NCBI GenBank assembly: GCA_016208665.1
Contig: JACQXT010000138.1
Location: 1-7,291 of the forward strand
Direction of reading: 5' to 3'
Source of the DNA: Chitinivibrionia bacterium
Lineage (GTDB): Bacteria > Krumholzibacteriota > Krumholzibacteriia > WVZY01
Length of the DNA: 7,291 bases
A program made the position numbers and the translations under genes. The notes under the pieces are model-generated. The model was not told the origin of the DNA, searched no databases, and saw nothing but the letters and a program-made list of their open reading frames with translations. The stretch's first letter is position 1. Every line of letters starts with the position of its first letter. Shown here in pieces: positions 146-7,291 of this stretch.

Positions 146-562
146 CTACTTCGGTGGAAAGTTCGCCGGGTCGATTACGTACCAGACGCTGTTCACGCCC
201 TGGCCGAGCGTATCGCCTGCAGTTTTGTCGTTGACCCAGTAGTAGAGCGGGAAGCCGCGGAACGTGGTCTGCTTCTGCCCGTCCTCGCGCGTGATCGTGG
301 CGAAATCCTCAGCCTTCACTCCCTCGGGTGCCTTGACCGCCTCGCGGTAATACAGGGGCCACTTCTCCACGCAGGGCCCCGCACAAGCGCTCTTCCCCGT
401 GGAGTCCTTCTTGAACCAGTAGAGTGCCATGTTCTTGGTGTCGGTGAGGTACGAGCCGACACCATCCTTCTTCGCAATCTTCACCGCGTGGTGTTCGGCG
501 AACGCGGGCGCGGAAGTAACCATCACGGTCACTGCGAGCAACGAGCCGACGATTCTTTTCAT
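146..562 (-). CDS. Secreted protein with two Yx[FWY]xxD repeats (COG4315 / PF03640-like)
   Basis: A 138-aa exported protein of unknown biochemical function. It has a basic start (MKR), a hydrophobic stretch and a probable signal peptidase I site after residue 22 (APAFA, then EHH). The mature part carries two copies of the family signature: Y48-W-F-K-K-D53, followed by GKSAC60AGPC64xxxWP, and Y107-Y-W-V-N-D112, followed by GDTLGQGVxxxWYV. This is the pattern of the 'secreted repeat' lipoprotein family with the conserved Yx(FWY)xxD motif; this member has no lipobox. Start choice: the frame is open further upstream, but ATG 562 directly begins the signal peptide and is preceded by AAAGGAGAGG at good spacing. 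It lies 44 bp downstream of the protease gene and is probably last in the leftward operon. C60 and C64 could form a disulfide. The family call is firm; the function is unknown. Confidence 0.85.
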   Translation of the reverse strand: MKRIVGSLLAVTVMVTSAPAFAEHHAVKIAKKDGVGSYLTDTKNMALYWFKKDSTGKSACAGPCVEKWPLYYREAVKAPEGVKAEDFATITREDGQKQTTFRGFPLYYWVNDKTAGDTLGQGVNSVWYVIDPANFPPK

Positions 563-606: not shown

Positions 607-1443
607 TTATCGCCTCTCCTTGTTCAGGGGATCTCTTGCACGAGACTCGAGTTCTCCCATGAATTTCTGCCACGCATCATGGAGCGAAAATCCGAGGATT
701 GATCGCCAGGAGCCTTCGAAATCGTGGCCGTCCGCAAGAGCGAGAAGGAGCGATTGGAATTTTGTCCCATCCAGAGATTGCAGATAGGCGACAAACATCT
801 CTGCCTGCCGGTAAAACATGTGTGACTCTAATCCGTACTTGCACCGCTCCGGATGCACGAGGCCGCCCGCGGCATCGGAAAAGAAATGTTGGCCCGCCAT
901 AATGGCCCGTGTCGCCTCCGGTTCAGTAACCATGGCCATGGCGGAACCGCCGGACACAAGCTCTGCCAAGCCTTCCTCAAACCACATCGGCAGCGTCGGG
1001 TGGCGTTCGGACACCCCGAGCCTCTGCTGCAAGTACAAATGCACAAGTTCGTGCGTGAGAAGTGCTTTGATGTGATCATCCGGCGCAGTTTTCACAAGCC
1101 CGGAAAGAAATACCGTTCCGGAAATCATGACTCCCCACTCCTGCTTTGAAACGTCGGTGACGGCGGCAAAGCTGTCAGCACTCTCGAAAATCTTGACCTG
1201 AACAGGCTTCACGAATGGGCGCTGGAGTTCTCTTTCAACTGTGGCGATTGACTCCGGCAGATACGAAGCAACGATGCGGGCTATGTTTTCTGCGCGTGGC
1301 TCGTAATAAATGCGATTGTCTGACTCCATTGGCATGAATTGCACGTTCGATTTTCTTGCTTGGTCGGACTGCTGTGCCATAGTGCAGCCAAACAACACAA
1401 TCGCCATCAGTTGAATCGGTATTCCAATCGATCGCTTGTTCAT
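607..1443 (-). CDS. Lipoprotein with peptidase MA-like (HExxH gluzincin) domain
   Basis: A 278-aa predicted outer-envelope lipoprotein and putative zinc metallopeptidase. The N-terminus has a hydrophobic segment that ends in a lipobox, with the lipid-bearing Cys at residue 20 (LFGC). The catalytic signature is clear: HELVH at 131-135 (two zinc His plus the general-base Glu132) and WFEEGLAE at 154-161, where E157 is the expected third zinc ligand. This HExxH...EGLAE arrangement is that of the peptidase MA-like / M1-type superfamily. The C-terminal helical part (205-270) probably completes the active-site cleft. The start at ATG 1443 is supported by GAGGAGC about 8 nt upstream and by the signal peptide. 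It lies 69 bp after the ATPase stop and 44 bp before the COG4315 gene, consistent with one leftward transcript. The substrate is not predictable. Base composition looks lower in GC than the ATPase gene (visual impression only). Confidence 0.85.
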   Translation of the reverse strand: MNKRSIGIPIQLMAIVLFGCTMAQQSDQARKSNVQFMPMESDNRIYYEPRAENIARIVASYLPESIATVERELQRPFVKPVQVKIFESADSFAAVTDVSKQEWGVMISGTVFLSGLVKTAPDDHIKALLTHELVHLYLQQRLGVSERHPTLPMWFEEGLAELVSGGSAMAMVTEPEATRAIMAGQHFFSDAAGGLVHPERCKYGLESHMFYRQAEMFVAYLQSLDGTKFQSLLLALADGHDFEGSWRSILGFSLHDAWQKFMGELESRARDPLNKERR

Positions 1444-1512: not shown

Positions 1513-4269
1513 TCATGGCTCGGTCCTCCATTGCGGCCGGGTGTGTCGCACAACCTTCACCGTCTCGAGGACCAACAACGGGATAACGCCCACGGCGAGC
1601 AACAGGAAGCAATCGCCAAGCGACATGAACGAGGTCTTCAGGAAGCGACCCAGCGTCACGTTGTGATGGCTCCACACCTGGAGGCCGAAAGAAATGGAAA
1701 CAACAATGGCGAGGTTGAAGTTCGTGAGCAGGGAGATGCGCCAGACCGGCTTGGTCTCGCTTCGGACACCGAATGCGCGGAGCAGTTCAGCGAAGACCAG
1801 GACCGCAAAGGCCTGGGTGCGTGCCATTTCTTCGGTTCCCGTCTTCAAGCCGTAGAGGTAAACCGTGAACGAGACACCAGCCGTGAGAAAACCGGTGAGG
1901 AACATCGGGCCGAGGAAGCCGCGGTCCGTGATGCGCTCGGACCGGCGCCGCGGAGGGCGATTCATTACGTCGGGGTCAATGGGGTCGGCTGCAAGGAAAA
2001 GTGCGGGCAGGCCGTCGGTGACGAGGTTGATCCAGAGCAGGTGGATCGGCAGCAGCGGCGAGGGGAGACCCACAACCACGCAGATGGTCATCAGGAGCAG
2101 TTCGCCCGTGTTGCCCGCCAGCAGATACTGGAGCGTCTTGCGGATGTTGTCGTAGATGCCACGGCCCTCTTCGACGGCGGCGACGATCGAAGCGAAGTTG
2201 TCATCGGTGATGATCATGTCCGAGGCCTGCTTCGTGACTTCCGTTCCTGAGATCCCCATGGCGATGCCGATGTCGGCGCCTTTGATGGCGGGTGCGTCGT
2301 TGACGCCGTCGCCGGTCATCGCGACCACCGCGCCATTCGCTTTCCAGGCGCGAACGATCCGGAGTTTATGCTCCGCGGTGACGCGGGCGTACACGGCGGT
2401 CCCTGGGGCGCGCTGGCGGAGGTCATCGTCGGACATCGTGTCCAGTTCGACGCCAGCAATGGCGGTGTCACCGTCCGCGGCGATGCCGAGTTCCCGTGCG
2501 ATCGCCATTGCGGTGTGCGGGTGGTCGCCGGTAATCATCACAACGCGGATGCCGGCGGCGCGGCATTTTGTCACGGCTTCTTTGGCCTCCTGGCGTGGTG
2601 GGTCATACATGCCGACGAGGCCGACGAAAACGAGATCGCGCTCCACCGCGTCCGCAGTGAGTGCGGCGGGGGGGAGGTCGTCCAGGTCGCGATAGGCTGA
2701 GCCGATGACGCGCAAGGCTTGCCGCGCCAGCGCGGTGTTTTGCGCCACGAGGCTTCCACGATCTTCGTCGGTCATGGGGCGGACACCGGTGCCGGTGTAC
2801 AGATTCGTGCAACGGAGCAAAAGCACATCAGGCGCGCCGTTGATGAAGGCGCGGAGCTTCCCGTCCGGCATCCGGCGGATGACCGTGCTCCGTTTGCGGT
2901 CGGAGTCGAAGGGGATTTCGTGATGCTTCGGCAGTTCCTTGTCGATGCGCTGCCGGTCACCGCCGGCTTTGAGGCCCACCGCGAGCAGCGCGCCTTCGGT
3001 GGGATCGCCGACGACTTTCCAGGTTCCGTCTTCCTGGACGAGATGGGCGTTGTTGCAGCCGAGAAGGACGGTCGCCAGATCGAGCAGGGGTGCGGTGTGT
3101 TGCGCCCCGGACTTCCGGCCCCCGAAGCGCACTTCGCCGCCCGGCCCATAGCCTTCGCCGGTGACTTCGTAGCTTCTGCCCGCGACAGAGAGCGCGCGTA
3201 CGGTCATTTCGCCGACCGTCAATGTGCCGGTCTTGTCCGTGCAGATGACTGTCGTCGAGCCGAGTGTCTCGACCGCGGGCAATCTGCGCACGAGCGCGCG
3301 GCGGCGGGACATGCGCAACACCCCGAGGGCGAGCGATACCGTGACGATGGCCGGCAGTCCTTCCGGCACGGCGGCCACGGCAAGGCTGACCGAGGTCATG
3401 ATCAGTTCGAGGAGCTTTGTCCCCCGCAGCAGCCCCAGCCCGAACAGCAGGGCGACGATGCCCAGCGCCGCCCAGACGAGGATGCGCCCGAACGAGTCGA
3501 GTTTCTGCTGAAGCGGTGTGCCCTCGTCGGCGCCCGCTTCTTCAATCAGACCGGCGATGCGGCCCAACTCCGAGTTCATCCCCGTGGCGACGACGACGGC
3601 CTGGCCGGTGCCCGCCGCGACGCTGGTTCCCATGAAGACCATGTTCTCTCGGTCGCCGAGCGGGATATCGCCCTGCGCCAGCGTCTTGGCCTGTTTGGTT
3701 ACCGCGTCCGACTCGCCGGTCAGCGCGGACTCGATGCACTTGAGCGAGGCCGCCTCCAGGATCCGTGCATCGGCGGCGACCAGGTCACCGGCTTCCAGCG
3801 CGAGGATGTCGCCCGCGACGATTCCCGAAGCGGCGATCGCGGTGACGTTCCCGTCGCGCCGCGCCTTGGCCTGTGGCGCGGTCATTTTTTTTAGCGCTGC
3901 GATGGACTGCTCCGCTTTGAACTCCTGGTAGAAGCCGATGACGGCATTGAGGAACACGATGGCGAGGATGGCGATCGCATCCACCACTTCACCAAGGAGA
4001 CTGGAAATGGCACCCGCGCCGATGAGAATCCAGACGATGAGACTCTTGAACTGACCGAAGAAGAGGTGGAGGGGGCTGACGCGCTTACCCTCCTTGAGTT
4101 CGTTCGGGCCATTGATCGCGAGGCGTCGGGCCGCTTCCTGCACGGAAAGTCCGGTTATTGCGGAGCCGAGCTGTACCAGCACCTCTTCAGCGGACCGGCT
4201 GTACCACATTGTGCCTTTTCGTGGTGTGGAATCACCGCCAGCGTGAGGATGGTCGTCGTCTTCGGGCAT
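1513..4269 (-). CDS. P2-type (SERCA/PMR1-like) Ca2+-transporting P-type ATPase
   Basis: A 918-aa inner-membrane cation pump that couples ATP hydrolysis to cation export. Visible in order: a cation-ATPase N-terminal domain (about 22-90), TGES (184-187, actuator), PEGLPAIVT (302-310, M4), DKTGT (345-349, phosphorylated Asp345), FINGAPD (475-481, nucleotide domain), MITGD (578-582), TGDGVNDAP (652-660), then a C-terminal membrane domain. Cation ligands of the SERCA type are present: E303 in PEGLP, N720 and E723 in NTGE, N748 and D752 in INLVTDG, and probably E828 in FAELL. This pattern favours Ca2+ over Na+/K+ or heavy metals. Odd: the usual Lys of the KGAP nucleotide-binding motif is Asn477. 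Start: the frame is open 49 codons further upstream, but that part crosses the promoter/palindrome region. GGAGG at 4283-4279 fits ATG 4269 (ATG 4275 is too close); ATG 4209 is a weaker alternative. It is first in a leftward operon. Confidence 0.93.
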   Translation of the reverse strand: MPEDDDHPHAGGDSTPRKGTMWYSRSAEEVLVQLGSAITGLSVQEAARRLAINGPNELKEGKRVSPLHLFFGQFKSLIVWILIGAGAISSLLGEVVDAIAILAIVFLNAVIGFYQEFKAEQSIAALKKMTAPQAKARRDGNVTAIAASGIVAGDILALEAGDLVAADARILEAASLKCIESALTGESDAVTKQAKTLAQGDIPLGDRENMVFMGTSVAAGTGQAVVVATGMNSELGRIAGLIEEAGADEGTPLQQKLDSFGRILVWAALGIVALLFGLGLLRGTKLLELIMTSVSLAVAAVPEGLPAIVTVSLALGVLRMSRRRALVRRLPAVETLGSTTVICTDKTGTLTVGEMTVRALSVAGRSYEVTGEGYGPGGEVRFGGRKSGAQHTAPLLDLATVLLGCNNAHLVQEDGTWKVVGDPTEGALLAVGLKAGGDRQRIDKELPKHHEIPFDSDRKRSTVIRRMPDGKLRAFINGAPDVLLLRCTNLYTGTGVRPMTDEDRGSLVAQNTALARQALRVIGSAYRDLDDLPPAALTADAVERDLVFVGLVGMYDPPRQEAKEAVTKCRAAGIRVVMITGDHPHTAMAIARELGIAADGDTAIAGVELDTMSDDDLRQRAPGTAVYARVTAEHKLRIVRAWKANGAVVAMTGDGVNDAPAIKGADIGIAMGISGTEVTKQASDMIITDDNFASIVAAVEEGRGIYDNIRKTLQYLLAGNTGELLLMTICVVVGLPSPLLPIHLLWINLVTDGLPALFLAADPIDPDVMNRPPRRRSERITDRGFLGPMFLTGFLTAGVSFTVYLYGLKTGTEEMARTQAFAVLVFAELLRAFGVRSETKPVWRISLLTNFNLAIVVSISFGLQVWSHHNVTLGRFLKTSFMSLGDCFLLLAVGVIPLLVLETVKVVRHTRPQWRTEP

Positions 4270-4337
4270 GAGCATACCCCTCCGCGACCCGAGTGCCTGC
4301 GTGCAGACAAAACGAATCTCCTCAAGCATTCTCGGTT

Positions 4338-4355
4338 CGAGAAAGATCTTTCTCG
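4338..4355. promoter_or_regulatory. 18-bp perfect palindrome, likely operator
   Basis: CGAGAAAGATCTTTCTCG reads identically on both strands. It lies between the divergent operons and covers the candidate -10 of the leftward promoter. Its left half also pairs with the adjacent TTCTCG (4329-4334) across GTT, so TTCTC/GAGAA units occur at 4329, 4339 and 4350 in alternating orientation. This looks like a binding site for a dimeric regulator; I do not recognise the family. A perfect 18-bp palindrome in such a short gap is unlikely by chance. Confidence 0.6.
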
Positions 4356-4374
4356 CAATCCGAAGGCTTGTCAA
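4346..4374 (-). promoter_or_regulatory. Candidate leftward promoter for the ATPase operon
   Basis: On the minus strand a perfect TTGACA (4374-4369) is followed after 17 nt by AAAGAT (4351-4346), which matches TATAAT at three of six positions. Transcription would begin near 4340 and leave a leader of about 70 nt before ATG 4269. The -10 lies inside the 18-bp palindrome at 4338-4355, so a bound repressor would block it. The -35 is strong and the -10 is weak. Confidence 0.45.
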
Positions 4375-4414
4375 TGCTTGGTCGGCAAACTTCGTGGACA
4401 ATGCCTTGACAAGC
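4366..4414. repeat. Inverted repeat placing two TTGACA boxes back to back
   Basis: The arms GCTTGTCAATGC (4366-4377) and GCCTTGACAAGC (4403-4414) are reverse complements at 11 of 12 positions and are separated by 25 bp. Each arm carries one TTGACA element pointing outward, so both candidate -35 boxes are part of the same symmetrical structure. An 11-bp direct repeat, CAAGCATTCTC, also occurs at 4323-4333 and 4410-4420, overlapping the right arm. The arrangement is that of a symmetrical divergent control region. Confidence 0.6.
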
Positions 4415-4434
4415 ATTCTCCCTGCACGGAGAAT
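4406..4434 (+). promoter_or_regulatory. Candidate rightward promoter for the seleno-rhodanese operon
   Basis: TTGACA (4406-4411), a 17-bp spacer and GAGAAT (4429-4434, four of six matches to TATAAT) form a plausible sigma-70 promoter. The start would be near 4441, giving a leader of about 54 nt to ATG 4495. A perfect 7-bp inverted repeat, ATTCTCC/GGAGAAT (4415-4434), fills the spacer and overlaps the -10. It can be extended by AGC/GCT across one bulged T. It carries the same TTCTC/GAGAA units as the palindrome at 4338-4355, which suggests one regulator controls both directions. Confidence 0.55.
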
Positions 4435-4494: not shown

Positions 4495-4905
4495 ATGAGA
4501 AAAGAAGTTGCTTCGACAGCGGCGCTTACCCTTCTTGCGATAGCTTGGATATTCTCTGCCATCAGCATCGCCGCCGAAGATGCGCCGCGGATCACGAAAG
4601 AAGAAGTGGTAACCCTTCTGGGCGACCCGAAGGTCACCATCCTGGATGCCAGGGCCCTGGCGGACTGGAAGAAGAGCGACAAGAAGATCAAGGGCGCGGT
4701 CCGCGTCGATCCCCATGACGTCGGCACCTGGGCCGGCAATTATTCCAAAGAGAAAAAAATCATCGTCTACTGCGCCTGACCCATGGAAGCGACGAGCGCC
4801 AGTGTGGTGCTCAATCTCAGGGGACGGGGCTTCACGAATGCCTTTGCGCTCAAGGGTGGCTGGAATGATTGGGTCGAGGCCGGATTCCTCACGGAACCGA
4901 AGTAA
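4495..4905 (+). CDS. Exported selenocysteine-containing rhodanese-like protein, copy 1 (in-frame TGA read as Sec)
   Basis: A 136-aa protein if TGA 4777-4779 is read as selenocysteine (residue 95); a plain gene caller stops at 94 aa. A signal peptide (1-27, cleavage near SIAA, then EDAPR) sends it out of the cytoplasm. The rhodanese domain runs from about 33 to 132: PRITKEEV, VTILDARALADW, IKGAVR, KKIIVYC93-A-U95-PMEATSA, then the C-terminal part GFTNAFALKGGWNDW that rhodaneses need. C93 sits at the catalytic-Cys position. In Cys homologues known to me this motif reads YCACP, so Sec replaces the second Cys. The usual CxxxxR active-site loop is absent. AAGGAG at 4481-4486 supports ATG 4495. It is first in the rightward cluster, 61 bp before a paralogue with the same TGA. 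Pseudogene or sequencing error is unlikely because both copies share the feature. Role (inference): thiol/selenol redox or sulfur/selenium transfer in the periplasm. Confidence 0.9.
4777..4812 (+). promoter_or_regulatory. UGA selenocysteine codon and bacterial SECIS hairpin, copy 1
   Basis: TGA (4777-4779) is followed after 14 nt by GAGCGCC (4794-4800), loop AGTGT (4801-4805) and GGTGCTC (4806-4812). This is a 7-bp stem with one G-U pair. The loop starts 21 nt after the UGA and has G as its second base. That fits the general bacterial SECIS description: a stem-loop just downstream of UGA inside the coding region, with a G among the first two loop bases, for SelB binding. The position and loop are identical in copy 2. 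Confidence 0.82.
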
Positions 4906-4966
4906 TGTGTGGTCAGGGTCTGTACGCAGGTGGTATCGCCTCTGTCATGATCAAGGAGAATGAGTC

Positions 4967-5383
4967 ATGAGACGCGCCGCATATGTTTTCGCGGGATTGT
5001 TGGTGATGCTTGCGCTTTTGTGGACGGTCCCTGCATCGGCCGCGGCCGCCGATGATGATGCTCCCCGGATAACCAAGGAAGAACTGAAGACGAGGCTTGG
5101 CGAACCCGCTCTTGCCGTGATCGATGTCCGGTACAGCCCGAACTGGAAAAAAAGTGGACAAAAGATTGCCAAGGCAGTTCGCGAAGATCCGACCGAGATC
5201 GGTTCCTGGGTCGGAAAGTACCGAAAAGACCAGGCCCTCGTCCTCTACTGTGACTGACCGAACGAACAGACAAGCGCCAGTGTGGCGCTTAACTTGATGG
5301 AACGGGGATTTACGAAGGTGTACGCGCTCAAAGGCGGTTGGTGGGAATGGGTCGGCGCAGGATATCCGGTTGAGGACAAGTGA
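4967..5383 (+). CDS. Exported selenocysteine-containing rhodanese-like protein, copy 2 (in-frame TGA read as Sec)
   Basis: A 138-aa paralogue of the preceding gene, with Sec at residue 97 (TGA 5255-5257) and a true TGA stop at 5381-5383, so one gene uses UGA both ways. Signal peptide 1-28 (LLVMLALLWTVPASA, then Ala-rich), mature start DDDAPRITKEE. Rhodanese features: LAVIDVRYSPNW, KAVRED, ALVLYC95-D-U97-PNEQTSA, GFTKVYALKGGWWEWVGAG. Hand alignment of the mature parts gives about 60 identities in 109 positions. From Sec to the C-terminus it is 27 of 42, against 33 of 67 before it. The part after the TGA is therefore under stronger constraint and must be translated. The start is supported by AAGGAG at 4953-4958, 8 nt upstream. 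It lies 66 bp before the DsrE-like gene, probably in the same transcript. Function as for copy 1: inferred extracytoplasmic sulfur/selenium or redox chemistry. Confidence 0.9.
5255..5290 (+). promoter_or_regulatory. UGA selenocysteine codon and bacterial SECIS hairpin, copy 2
   Basis: TGA (5255-5257) is followed after 14 nt by AAGCGCC (5272-5278), loop AGTGT (5279-5283) and GGCGCTT (5284-5290). This is a fully Watson-Crick 7-bp stem. Relative to copy 1 the basal pair changes from G-C to A-U through two synonymous third-position changes (ACG to ACA, CTC to CTT). The G-U pair becomes G-C, at the cost of a Val/Ala change. Distance and loop are unchanged, which supports selection on RNA structure as well as on protein. 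Confidence 0.83.
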
Positions 5384-5449: not shown

Positions 5450-5968
5450 ATGAAACGCGCGCTTCTTTCGATCATGACGCTGATCTTCTTTTCAGCGTGT
5501 CCGATCTTAGCGTTTAGCGAGTCTGGCGCGGCAAAGACGTTTCTTATCCATGTCAAGAGCCCCATGACAAAGCATGACGCCCGGACCGTCTTTATCCCTC
5601 ACCTCGCCCTGAGCGCATTGCAGCAAGGCTACAGGGTGGTCATTCTTTTCGATGACGACGGAGTGTCGGCGATAAAAATCGGCGTATGGTACGGTGGGCA
5701 CACGACACCGCTCGACAAGACGGCGTTGCCGGAAGAGGAGCGTCGGGCCCTCGCTACCCTGCTTGGCGTTCCCGATCCAAGCCTTCCCGACAATTACGGC
5801 GATTTTGTCCGTTTCCTGAAGGGGAAAGGGGTTGAACTCTACGCAAATAAGATCGTGATGGAACTCCGGAATATCGGAGGCGAAAAGTACGACCACGCGG
5901 TGACGCCTGTCGGAATGGACAGGATGGTGGAGATATTGGGCGGGGCAACGATCTACGTGGCCTATTGA
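5450..5968 (+). CDS. Secreted DsrE/DsrF-like family protein lacking the sulfur-carrier Cys
   Basis: A 172-aa exported protein with a signal peptide (MKRALLSIMTLIFFSACPILAFS). Cleavage near residue 23 is likely; FSAC with Cys17 could instead serve as a weak lipobox. The mature part has the DsrE-like Rossmann-type pattern: KTFLIHVKSP (29-38), HLALSALQQGYRVVILFDDDGVSAIK (51-76), FLKGKGVELYANKIVMELRNIGG (122-144), and a C-terminal TPVGMDRMVEILGGATIYV. In sulfur-carrying DsrE relatives a Cys follows the GVxxY strand. Here that place reads ELYANK, and no Cys exists after the signal region, so persulfide transfer through Cys is not possible. Start: ATG 5450 with GGAG at 5437-5440; the in-frame ATG at 5429 lacks a good site and would add residues before the signal. 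It is third in the rightward cluster, 66 bp after seleno-rhodanese 2. The pairing with rhodaneses suggests sulfur chemistry by context. Confidence 0.75.
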   Translation: MKRALLSIMTLIFFSACPILAFSESGAAKTFLIHVKSPMTKHDARTVFIPHLALSALQQGYRVVILFDDDGVSAIKIGVWYGGHTTPLDKTALPEEERRALATLLGVPDPSLPDNYGDFVRFLKGKGVELYANKIVMELRNIGGEKYDHAVTPVGMDRMVEILGGATIYVAY

Positions 5969-6391: not shown

Positions 6392-6955
6392 ATGCGCTCG
6401 CCTTGGATCGTCAGGTGTATCGTCACGTTCACGTTGGTCTGCGCCGGCTGTGCCGCCGGGCGAGGTTCCGCCCTTAAATCTCCCGCGACTGATGCCGAGT
6501 TGATCGCGAACGCCATGTCCGCCGCCCCGAGAGCGGTTGCTGAGGCGGCCACGATCATGGCCACGGACGAAAAGGGCCAGTTGCGGGTTCTTCGCCAGGG
6601 CACCGGACCCTTTACCTGCCTTCCCGACAATCCGGAATCGCCCGGCAACGACCCGATGTGCGTGGACAAGGCCGGTATGGAATGGGCGAAAGCCTGGATG
6701 ACGAAGACTACCCCTCAGGCCGGCATGGTAGGATTCGGCTACATGCTCATGGGCGGCTCGGACGCCAGCAACGACGATCCCTATGCAAAGGGACCGGCGC
6801 CCGGAATGCGCTGGGTCGAAACGGGTCCACACGTCATGGTCTTCAACCCTGGCCCGATGATCGACGCTTATCCGAAGAAAGCTGACGATCCGAGGCAACC
6901 TTATGTGATGTGGGGGGACACGCCCTATCGGCATCTCATGATTCCGGTCCAGTGA
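6392..6955 (+). CDS. Lipoprotein of an uncharacterised secreted family
   Basis: A 187-aa predicted lipoprotein. A hydrophobic N-terminus (MRSPWIVRCIVTFTLVCAGC) ends in CAGC with Cys20 as the lipidation site; the -3 Cys is atypical. The mature protein begins with an Ala-rich helix (DAELIANAMSAAPRAVAEAATIM, 34-56). A compact domain follows, with Cys76 and Cys90 in GPFTCLPDN...DPMCVD (a likely disulfide) and the strongly patterned stretches MEWAKAWM, GYMLMGGSDASNDDPY, WVETGPHVMVFNP (141-153) and PYVMWGDTPYRHLMIPV (170-186). From memory this pattern occurs in many short secreted proteins annotated only as hypothetical; I know of no function. His147 and His181 are the only His residues in the conserved stretches and could bind a ligand or metal (speculative). 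The start is supported by AAAGGAGGA at 6378-6386; the longer frame from 6308 would bury the signal peptide. It is 423 bp from its upstream neighbour, so probably a separate transcript. Confidence 0.8.
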   Translation: MRSPWIVRCIVTFTLVCAGCAAGRGSALKSPATDAELIANAMSAAPRAVAEAATIMATDEKGQLRVLRQGTGPFTCLPDNPESPGNDPMCVDKAGMEWAKAWMTKTTPQAGMVGFGYMLMGGSDASNDDPYAKGPAPGMRWVETGPHVMVFNPGPMIDAYPKKADDPRQPYVMWGDTPYRHLMIPVQ

Positions 6956-7021: not shown

Positions 7022-7291
7022 TCAGAGGGCGGCGAGCTCCTTCTCGATCGCGTTGACGTGGCCCTTCTCGAACGCGGCCAGGTGGTCGAAGATCTTCTTC
7101 GCCCCCGGCTCCTTCGCGCGGGCCGAGGCGCCGGAGAACAGGTCGAACGCCTCCTTCTCCAGCAGGAGAGCCATCTGGAGGACTTCCCGGGCCGTCTTGA
7201 GGCCGCCGATCTTCCCGAGCAGCTCCCTGTGGGTCTCCTGGACGAGCTCGTCGATGTCCGGAAGCCCCTCCTTGCCGAGGATGTCCTTGTA
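7022..7291 (-). CDS. C-terminal part of a ferritin-like / rubrerythrin-type protein (partial)
   Basis: The final 89 residues of a leftward gene whose start lies beyond the right edge; the stop is TGA at 7024-7022. The visible part is helical and charged. It has TAREVLQMALLLEKEAFDLFSGASARA (33-59), then PGAKKIFDHLAAFEKGHVNAIEKELAAL (62-89). The helix with LEKEAFDLF and the helix with E75-K-G-H78 match the last two helices of a rubrerythrin-like four-helix bundle, where Glu and ExxH bind a di-iron centre. Such domains act in peroxide or iron handling. The N-terminal half is not visible. In some bacteria a ferritin-like C-terminus is fused to a rhodanese domain, which could fit this neighbourhood but cannot be judged here. 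Third codon positions are almost all G or C, more so than in the central genes. Confidence 0.75.
   Translation of the reverse strand, partial: YKDILGKEGLPDIDELVQETHRELLGKIGGLKTAREVLQMALLLEKEAFDLFSGASARAKEPGAKKIFDHLAAFEKGHVNAIEKELAAL

Follow-up and report, generated by a model that had tools for sequence, protein, structure and literature searches.

The window, meaning the whole stretch of DNA analysed (7291 bp), is an entire contig (C96) of a bin (G000) that is 66% complete and comprises 232 contigs. Two rhodanese-domain genes, named A and B here, lie in tandem on its forward strand and are followed by a third gene of DsrE fold (Table 1), the intergenic gaps measuring 61 nt (A to B) and 66 nt (B to third gene). 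Each of A and B contains an in-frame TGA embedded in a shared motif, Y-C-x-[TGA]-P-x-E-x-T-S-A-S, and the frames run on to a TAA at 4903-4905 in gene A and a TGA at 5381-5383 in gene B, confirming the TGA positions and downstream frames reported in an earlier note on this DNA. Aligned from the end of the leader, the two proteins are identical at 32/65 positions upstream of the TGA and 26/41 downstream, a trend like that of the earlier count (33/67 and 27/42); overall, they are about half identical (51-53%).

Both proteins matched the Pfam Rhodanese family (PF00581; 1.8e-13 for gene A and 8.7e-12 for gene B) and the predicted fold is likewise that of a rhodanese. The catalytic loop in the gene A model consists of a strand (88-92), C93-A94-U95 and a helix starting at residue 96, the place of the classical Cys being taken by C93 or U95. 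The closest structures of the rhodanese protein are largely sulfurtransferase and persulfide-handling domains; since the VIA ranking of structural neighbours is limited to matches supplied by Foldseek, it excludes no family. The earlier note had described a tandem of exported seleno-rhodaneses: selenocysteine (Sec), the rhodanese domain and the tandem all stand, and export is predicted, by inspection, from a leader-like hydrophobic stretch in each protein.

A and B belong to an already catalogued family and do not form a new one, scoring 152.4 and 161.3 bits against NF041203, “rhodanese-related (seleno)protein” (rhodanese_LYCAU), whose cut-off is 115. A 2026 review lists the CxU rhodanese as rhodanese form 3, and its available text describes a single Sec per protein and does not give an arrangement (PMC13188914). 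While A and B resemble NF041203 and form 3 in passing the cut-off and in their Y-C-x-U motif, the window differs from the review entry in its two tandem paralogues and DsrE-fold gene, and some family genes elsewhere carry U-x-U. A Sec rhodanese domain is also found in TsoB (rhodanese/DsbD fusion-like selenoprotein, NF045694, UxxxxU), but gene B reaches 21.7 bits against it, far under the cut-off of 805, and the window genes have a different motif and no DsbD part. Similarly, the Sec rhodanese forms 1, 2 and 4 (UxxS, UxxG), as described in the available parts of the reviews, share the fold and Sec but differ in the motif surrounding it. The earlier suggestion of novelty therefore fails for the proteins; no publication on the A-B tandem was found in the literature searched, and within that literature the tandem with its leader-bearing DsrE-fold gene is apparently undescribed.

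Table 1 Features of the window and, in the last row, family genes located outside it.
Feature	Position	Strand	Details
Lipoprotein_15 repeat protein	149-562	-	Pfam/NCBIfam
Peptidase_MA-like protein	610-1443	-	Pfam/NCBIfam
Cation-transporting P-type ATPase, PMR1/SERCA-like	1513-4416	-	under equivalog cut-offs
22-nt inverted repeat	4362-4418		82% complementary; upstream of gene A
Promoter-like TTGACA/GAGAAT	4406-4434		in one arm of the inverted repeat
Gene A, rhodanese-domain selenoprotein (predicted)	4495-4905	+	136 aa, Sec95, leader residues ~1-28 (translation, TGA=U)
Gene A in-frame TGA, predicted Sec95 (YCAU)	4777-4779	+	sequence; same-column TGA in L015, L016
Gene A SECIS-like hairpin	4794-4812	+	8 bp (8/8 pairs), loop GUG; energy p=0.003 vs synonymous redraws
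Gene B, rhodanese-domain selenoprotein (predicted)	4967-5383	+	138 aa, Sec97, leader residues ~1-28 (translation, TGA=U)
Gene B in-frame TGA, predicted Sec97 (YCDU)	5255-5257	+	sequence; same-column TGA in L015, L016
Gene B SECIS-like hairpin	5272-5290	+	8 bp (8/8 pairs), loop GUG; energy p=0.013 vs synonymous redraws
Third cassette gene, DsrE-fold protein	5450-5968	+	172 aa, leader; sole Cys = Cys17, inside leader
ORF, possible lipoprotein-like	6392-6955	+	187 aa; no Pfam or NCBIfam match
Partial ORF	7025-7291	-	no Pfam or NCBIfam match
Y-U-x-U genes	L017:4209-4622, L018:3123-3536, ten further loci		two TGAs six bases apart

The promoter-like sequence upstream of gene A was rejected as a candidate, as one was found where 0.7 are expected, which is no more than chance. 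The P-type ATPase gene does not adjoin the cassette at the two related loci L015 and L016.

Decoding of the in-frame TGA codons

The region 3′ of the TGA is under purifying selection. Compared with the orthologues at L015 and L016, dN/dS past the TGA is 0.23 and 0.12, respectively, for gene A and 0.02 in both comparisons for gene B, well under 1 and in favour of the reading of the earlier note; the corresponding upstream values are 0.33 and 0.32 for A and 0.11 and 0.14 for B. Between L015 and L016 themselves, the downstream ratio is 0.39 for A, based on 7 changes only, and 0 for B, based on 1 change; for the A-B comparison it is 0.20, at a dS close to saturation. A TGA at the same column was found in these orthologues and in 53 family genes, namely those among 65 blastp rows that contain [Y/F][C/U]xU; the 12 rows left out are L110 (YUAR, TGAs elsewhere), L114 (TGA elsewhere) and ten without a TGA. 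The family genes fetched are part of the TGA-bearing matches listed from the phylum of L015.

Among 73 database homologues, 50 stop at YC[A/S/T/D], one residue short of Sec, and another 20 stop just past the preceding Tyr, so that annotation does truncate these proteins as had been foreseen. An annotation that stops at the TGA loses the active site and the remaining domain and hides the copy number of the family. That automatic annotation ends the family there would agree with the TGAs being genuine stops, leaving two truncated rhodanese remnants with decaying downstream parts; the dN/dS values past the TGA, the TGA shared by orthologues and family genes, and the hairpin and Sec machinery described below make this very improbable.

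Hairpins resembling SECIS elements begin 14 nt past the TGA in both genes, with the loop starting 22 nt past it. The bacterial SECIS model, as given in the available text of PMC13188914, has a loop of 3-9 nt and a stem of 4-16 bp, a G within the first two loop places, a spacing of 16-37 nt and an MFE <= -7.5; genes A and B agree with this published four-point model throughout. Across the family, 43/53 genes fit the model and 10/53 fail, against 59/159 synonymous redraws that fit. Taken one by one at the 0.05 level, the hairpin is significant in 23/51 family sequences by energy and in 17/51 by pair number. For the 51 distinct sequences, 73.5% of the cells are paired, versus 30.9-47.8% at slid positions, and the signal comes from the five inner pairs, the outer two and the innermost being weak. 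No Rfam match was found within the window.

The bin encodes selA, selB, selD and a tRNA-Sec, all above their cut-offs, which answers the earlier question of whether Sec machinery exists in the same genome. The tRNA-Sec has the anticodon TCA and is located at a contig end, and selD (L012, G000:C146) contains an in-frame TGA of its own, located in the active site (SCAGU). The first piece of selB alone scores 242.4 against a cut-off of 242.25, and 312 together with its neighbour in frame. Among relatives, selA is above the cut-off in 38/38, including the genome of the window, and selB in both other tandem genomes tested. None of the machinery genes is on the window's own contig, so the link between machinery and cassette depends on binning. 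Between the contig and the remainder of the bin, tetranucleotide composition shows a correlation of 0.92, and 11% of 96 equal-length chunks are lower; this value is acceptable, though on the low side, and gives no pointer to mis-binning, although the contig may still be mis-binned.

Cys occupies the Sec column (YCAC) in 2/73 homologues (P0043 and P0075), such that both Cys and Sec forms align across the TGA; the earlier note had mentioned rhodanese selenoproteins with Cys homologues of this kind, and NF041203 is indeed a curated family. An open frame under TGA=residue leaves the identity of the residue unspecified, and an altered code or a Trp read-through would also give one. Such decoding is hardly credible here, considering that TGA also terminates gene B and the DsrE-fold gene (5966-5968), that Cys takes the column in the two homologues and that the bin has a tRNA-Sec with the anticodon TCA. 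Judging from the sequences, both TGAs are thus very likely decoded as Sec.

Recurrence of the tandem and its DsrE-fold gene

A genome scan with gene B as query returned seven loci, among them L015 (Nitrospirae DeMMO3_8) and L016 (Nitrospiria Hainich-H41), which harbor the same A-B tandem with a TGA in both copies. Their A copies are 68% and 73% identical to that of the window, respectively, and their B copies 77% and 76%. In the phylum of the L015 genome, at least 27 of 395 drawn genomes score above the NF041203 cut-off, and at least three of those above it (G080, G081 and G450) have paired adjacent hits, making four genomes with that of the window. The pair is not confined to the window's genome, being present in three others. 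Given the same-order tandem at L015, L016 and G450, and the mere 51-53% identity of A and B, it is most improbable that the tandem was misassembled or arose by duplication only very recently, as the short contig and its fragmented bin might otherwise suggest.

Within the window's own phylum, 1/80 genomes (its own) passes the NF041203 cut-off, and 73/80 match at E<=0.001, mostly through other rhodaneses. As G080 and G081 are outside these 80 same-phylum genomes, transfer between phyla is likely; alternatively, mis-binning may account for the distribution. In a tree built without the motif columns, the B copies of the four tandem genomes form one group (96/93). A second group (87/82, not starred) unites the A copies from the window, L015 and L016. 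The A-like copy of G450 falls outside that A group, nearby, so its orthology to A is unsure. No relative was found in viral contigs scanned with gene A, where 10 stretches matched the pattern and 0 were confirmed.

The third gene scores 14.1 bits against Pfam DsrE (PF02635), under the gathering cut-off of 22.7. Its AF2 model (pLDDT 87.6) matched 10 PDB rows with E<=0.001, comprising DsrE/DsrF, DsrEFH, YchN and TusBCD; a sequence search of solved structures gave MreB rows only, at E ~0.5, which we take as chance. A sulfur-carrying Cys is typical of DsrE/TusD. Because the sole Cys of the third protein is inside the leader, processing would leave the protein with no Cys to bear sulfur, and we therefore name it a DsrE-fold protein without classing it as DsrE. 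Thus, it resembles the sulfur-relay proteins DsrE/DsrF, DsrEFH and TusBCD in fold but differs from them in its sub-threshold Pfam score, its leader and its lack of a Cys beyond it.

The three-gene cassette, A-B followed by the leader-bearing DsrE-fold gene, recurs in four genomes: the window, L015 and L016 (third gene 63% identical) and G450 (44%). In G081 (42%) and G156 (35%), the third gene instead stands downstream of a UxU copy, and in total it is 3′ of 10/53 family gene rows, corresponding to six loci. No DsrE-fold gene was found within 1.8 kb downstream of the UxU gene of G080 (L060). The recurrent cassette provides a testable context for a catalogued, uncharacterised family in Sec-dependent, predicted periplasmic sulfur handling.

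Proposed sulfur transfer

Our preferred reading, with a probability of roughly 0.58, is that A and B are very likely Sec rhodaneses, predicted to be exported and hairpin-decoded, that act in periplasmic sulfur transfer with the DsrE-fold protein as a possible partner. Each in-frame TGA would be decoded as Sec through the hairpin downstream of it. Once exported, the selenolate would accept sulfane sulfur in the periplasm, forming a perselenide or selenenyl-sulfide that the Cys two residues before Sec, in the same loop, would resolve. The sulfur would then be handed on, and the Cys-less DsrE-fold protein may serve here as partner or scaffold. Here we infer Sec insertion in the cell, export, the chemistry and the DsrE-fold partnership alike. 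Since A and B are about half identical and yet each under selection, the two probably act on different substrates or with different partners.

A smaller but serious possibility is that these selenoproteins serve thiol/selenol redox chemistry without sulfur transfer, with a CxU selenenyl-sulfide couple that would reduce disulfides or peroxides in the periplasm. The residue two before Sec is always Cys (41/53 aligned genes) or Sec encoded by TGA (12/53), as a redox pair would have, and the tree needs at least six Cys/Sec changes at that position. Moreover, most uncharacterised selenoproteins have redox roles, according to the available part of PMC9312934. However, the fold is that of a rhodanese, and its closest structures are largely sulfurtransferase and persulfide-handling domains; the adjacent gene, in addition, has a DsrE fold. 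All of this is still compatible with redox chemistry. We favour sulfur transfer over plain redox with moderate confidence.

Relatives with a U-x-U motif

The 12 family genes with Sec at both positions read Y-U-x-U, and none of them is in the window. At the second TGA, 10/12 agree with the SECIS model, and L091 and L112 fail it. Measured from the first TGA, the hairpin loop is ~28 nt away, which is within the published range, so one SECIS hairpin could serve both UGAs. These relatives offer a test case for one SECIS serving two close UGAs. The UxU motif is absent from the available text of the review PMC13188914 and from the other papers listed by our search, and no literature pairing “two selenocysteine residues” with “rhodanese” was found; the variant is apparently undescribed within the literature searched.

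Combining these observations, one may speculate about a periplasmic selenium-based sulfur relay built from two non-redundant Cys-x-Sec rhodaneses and a Cys-less DsrE-fold partner, in which the relatives would use a diselenide-capable U-x-U with one SECIS for both UGAs. This fuller scheme is tentative.

In two further two-TGA hits (L115 and L116), the [Y/F][C/U]xU motif was not found. L110 (G352:C1:1061500-1065500) is a relative with Y-U-A-R and a further downstream TGA, perhaps a decaying copy. Finally, L019 and L020 (Acidobacteria/Vicinamibacterales) lack both TGA and Cys at the motif position (VVAYDSDPEE) and are perhaps non-catalytic.
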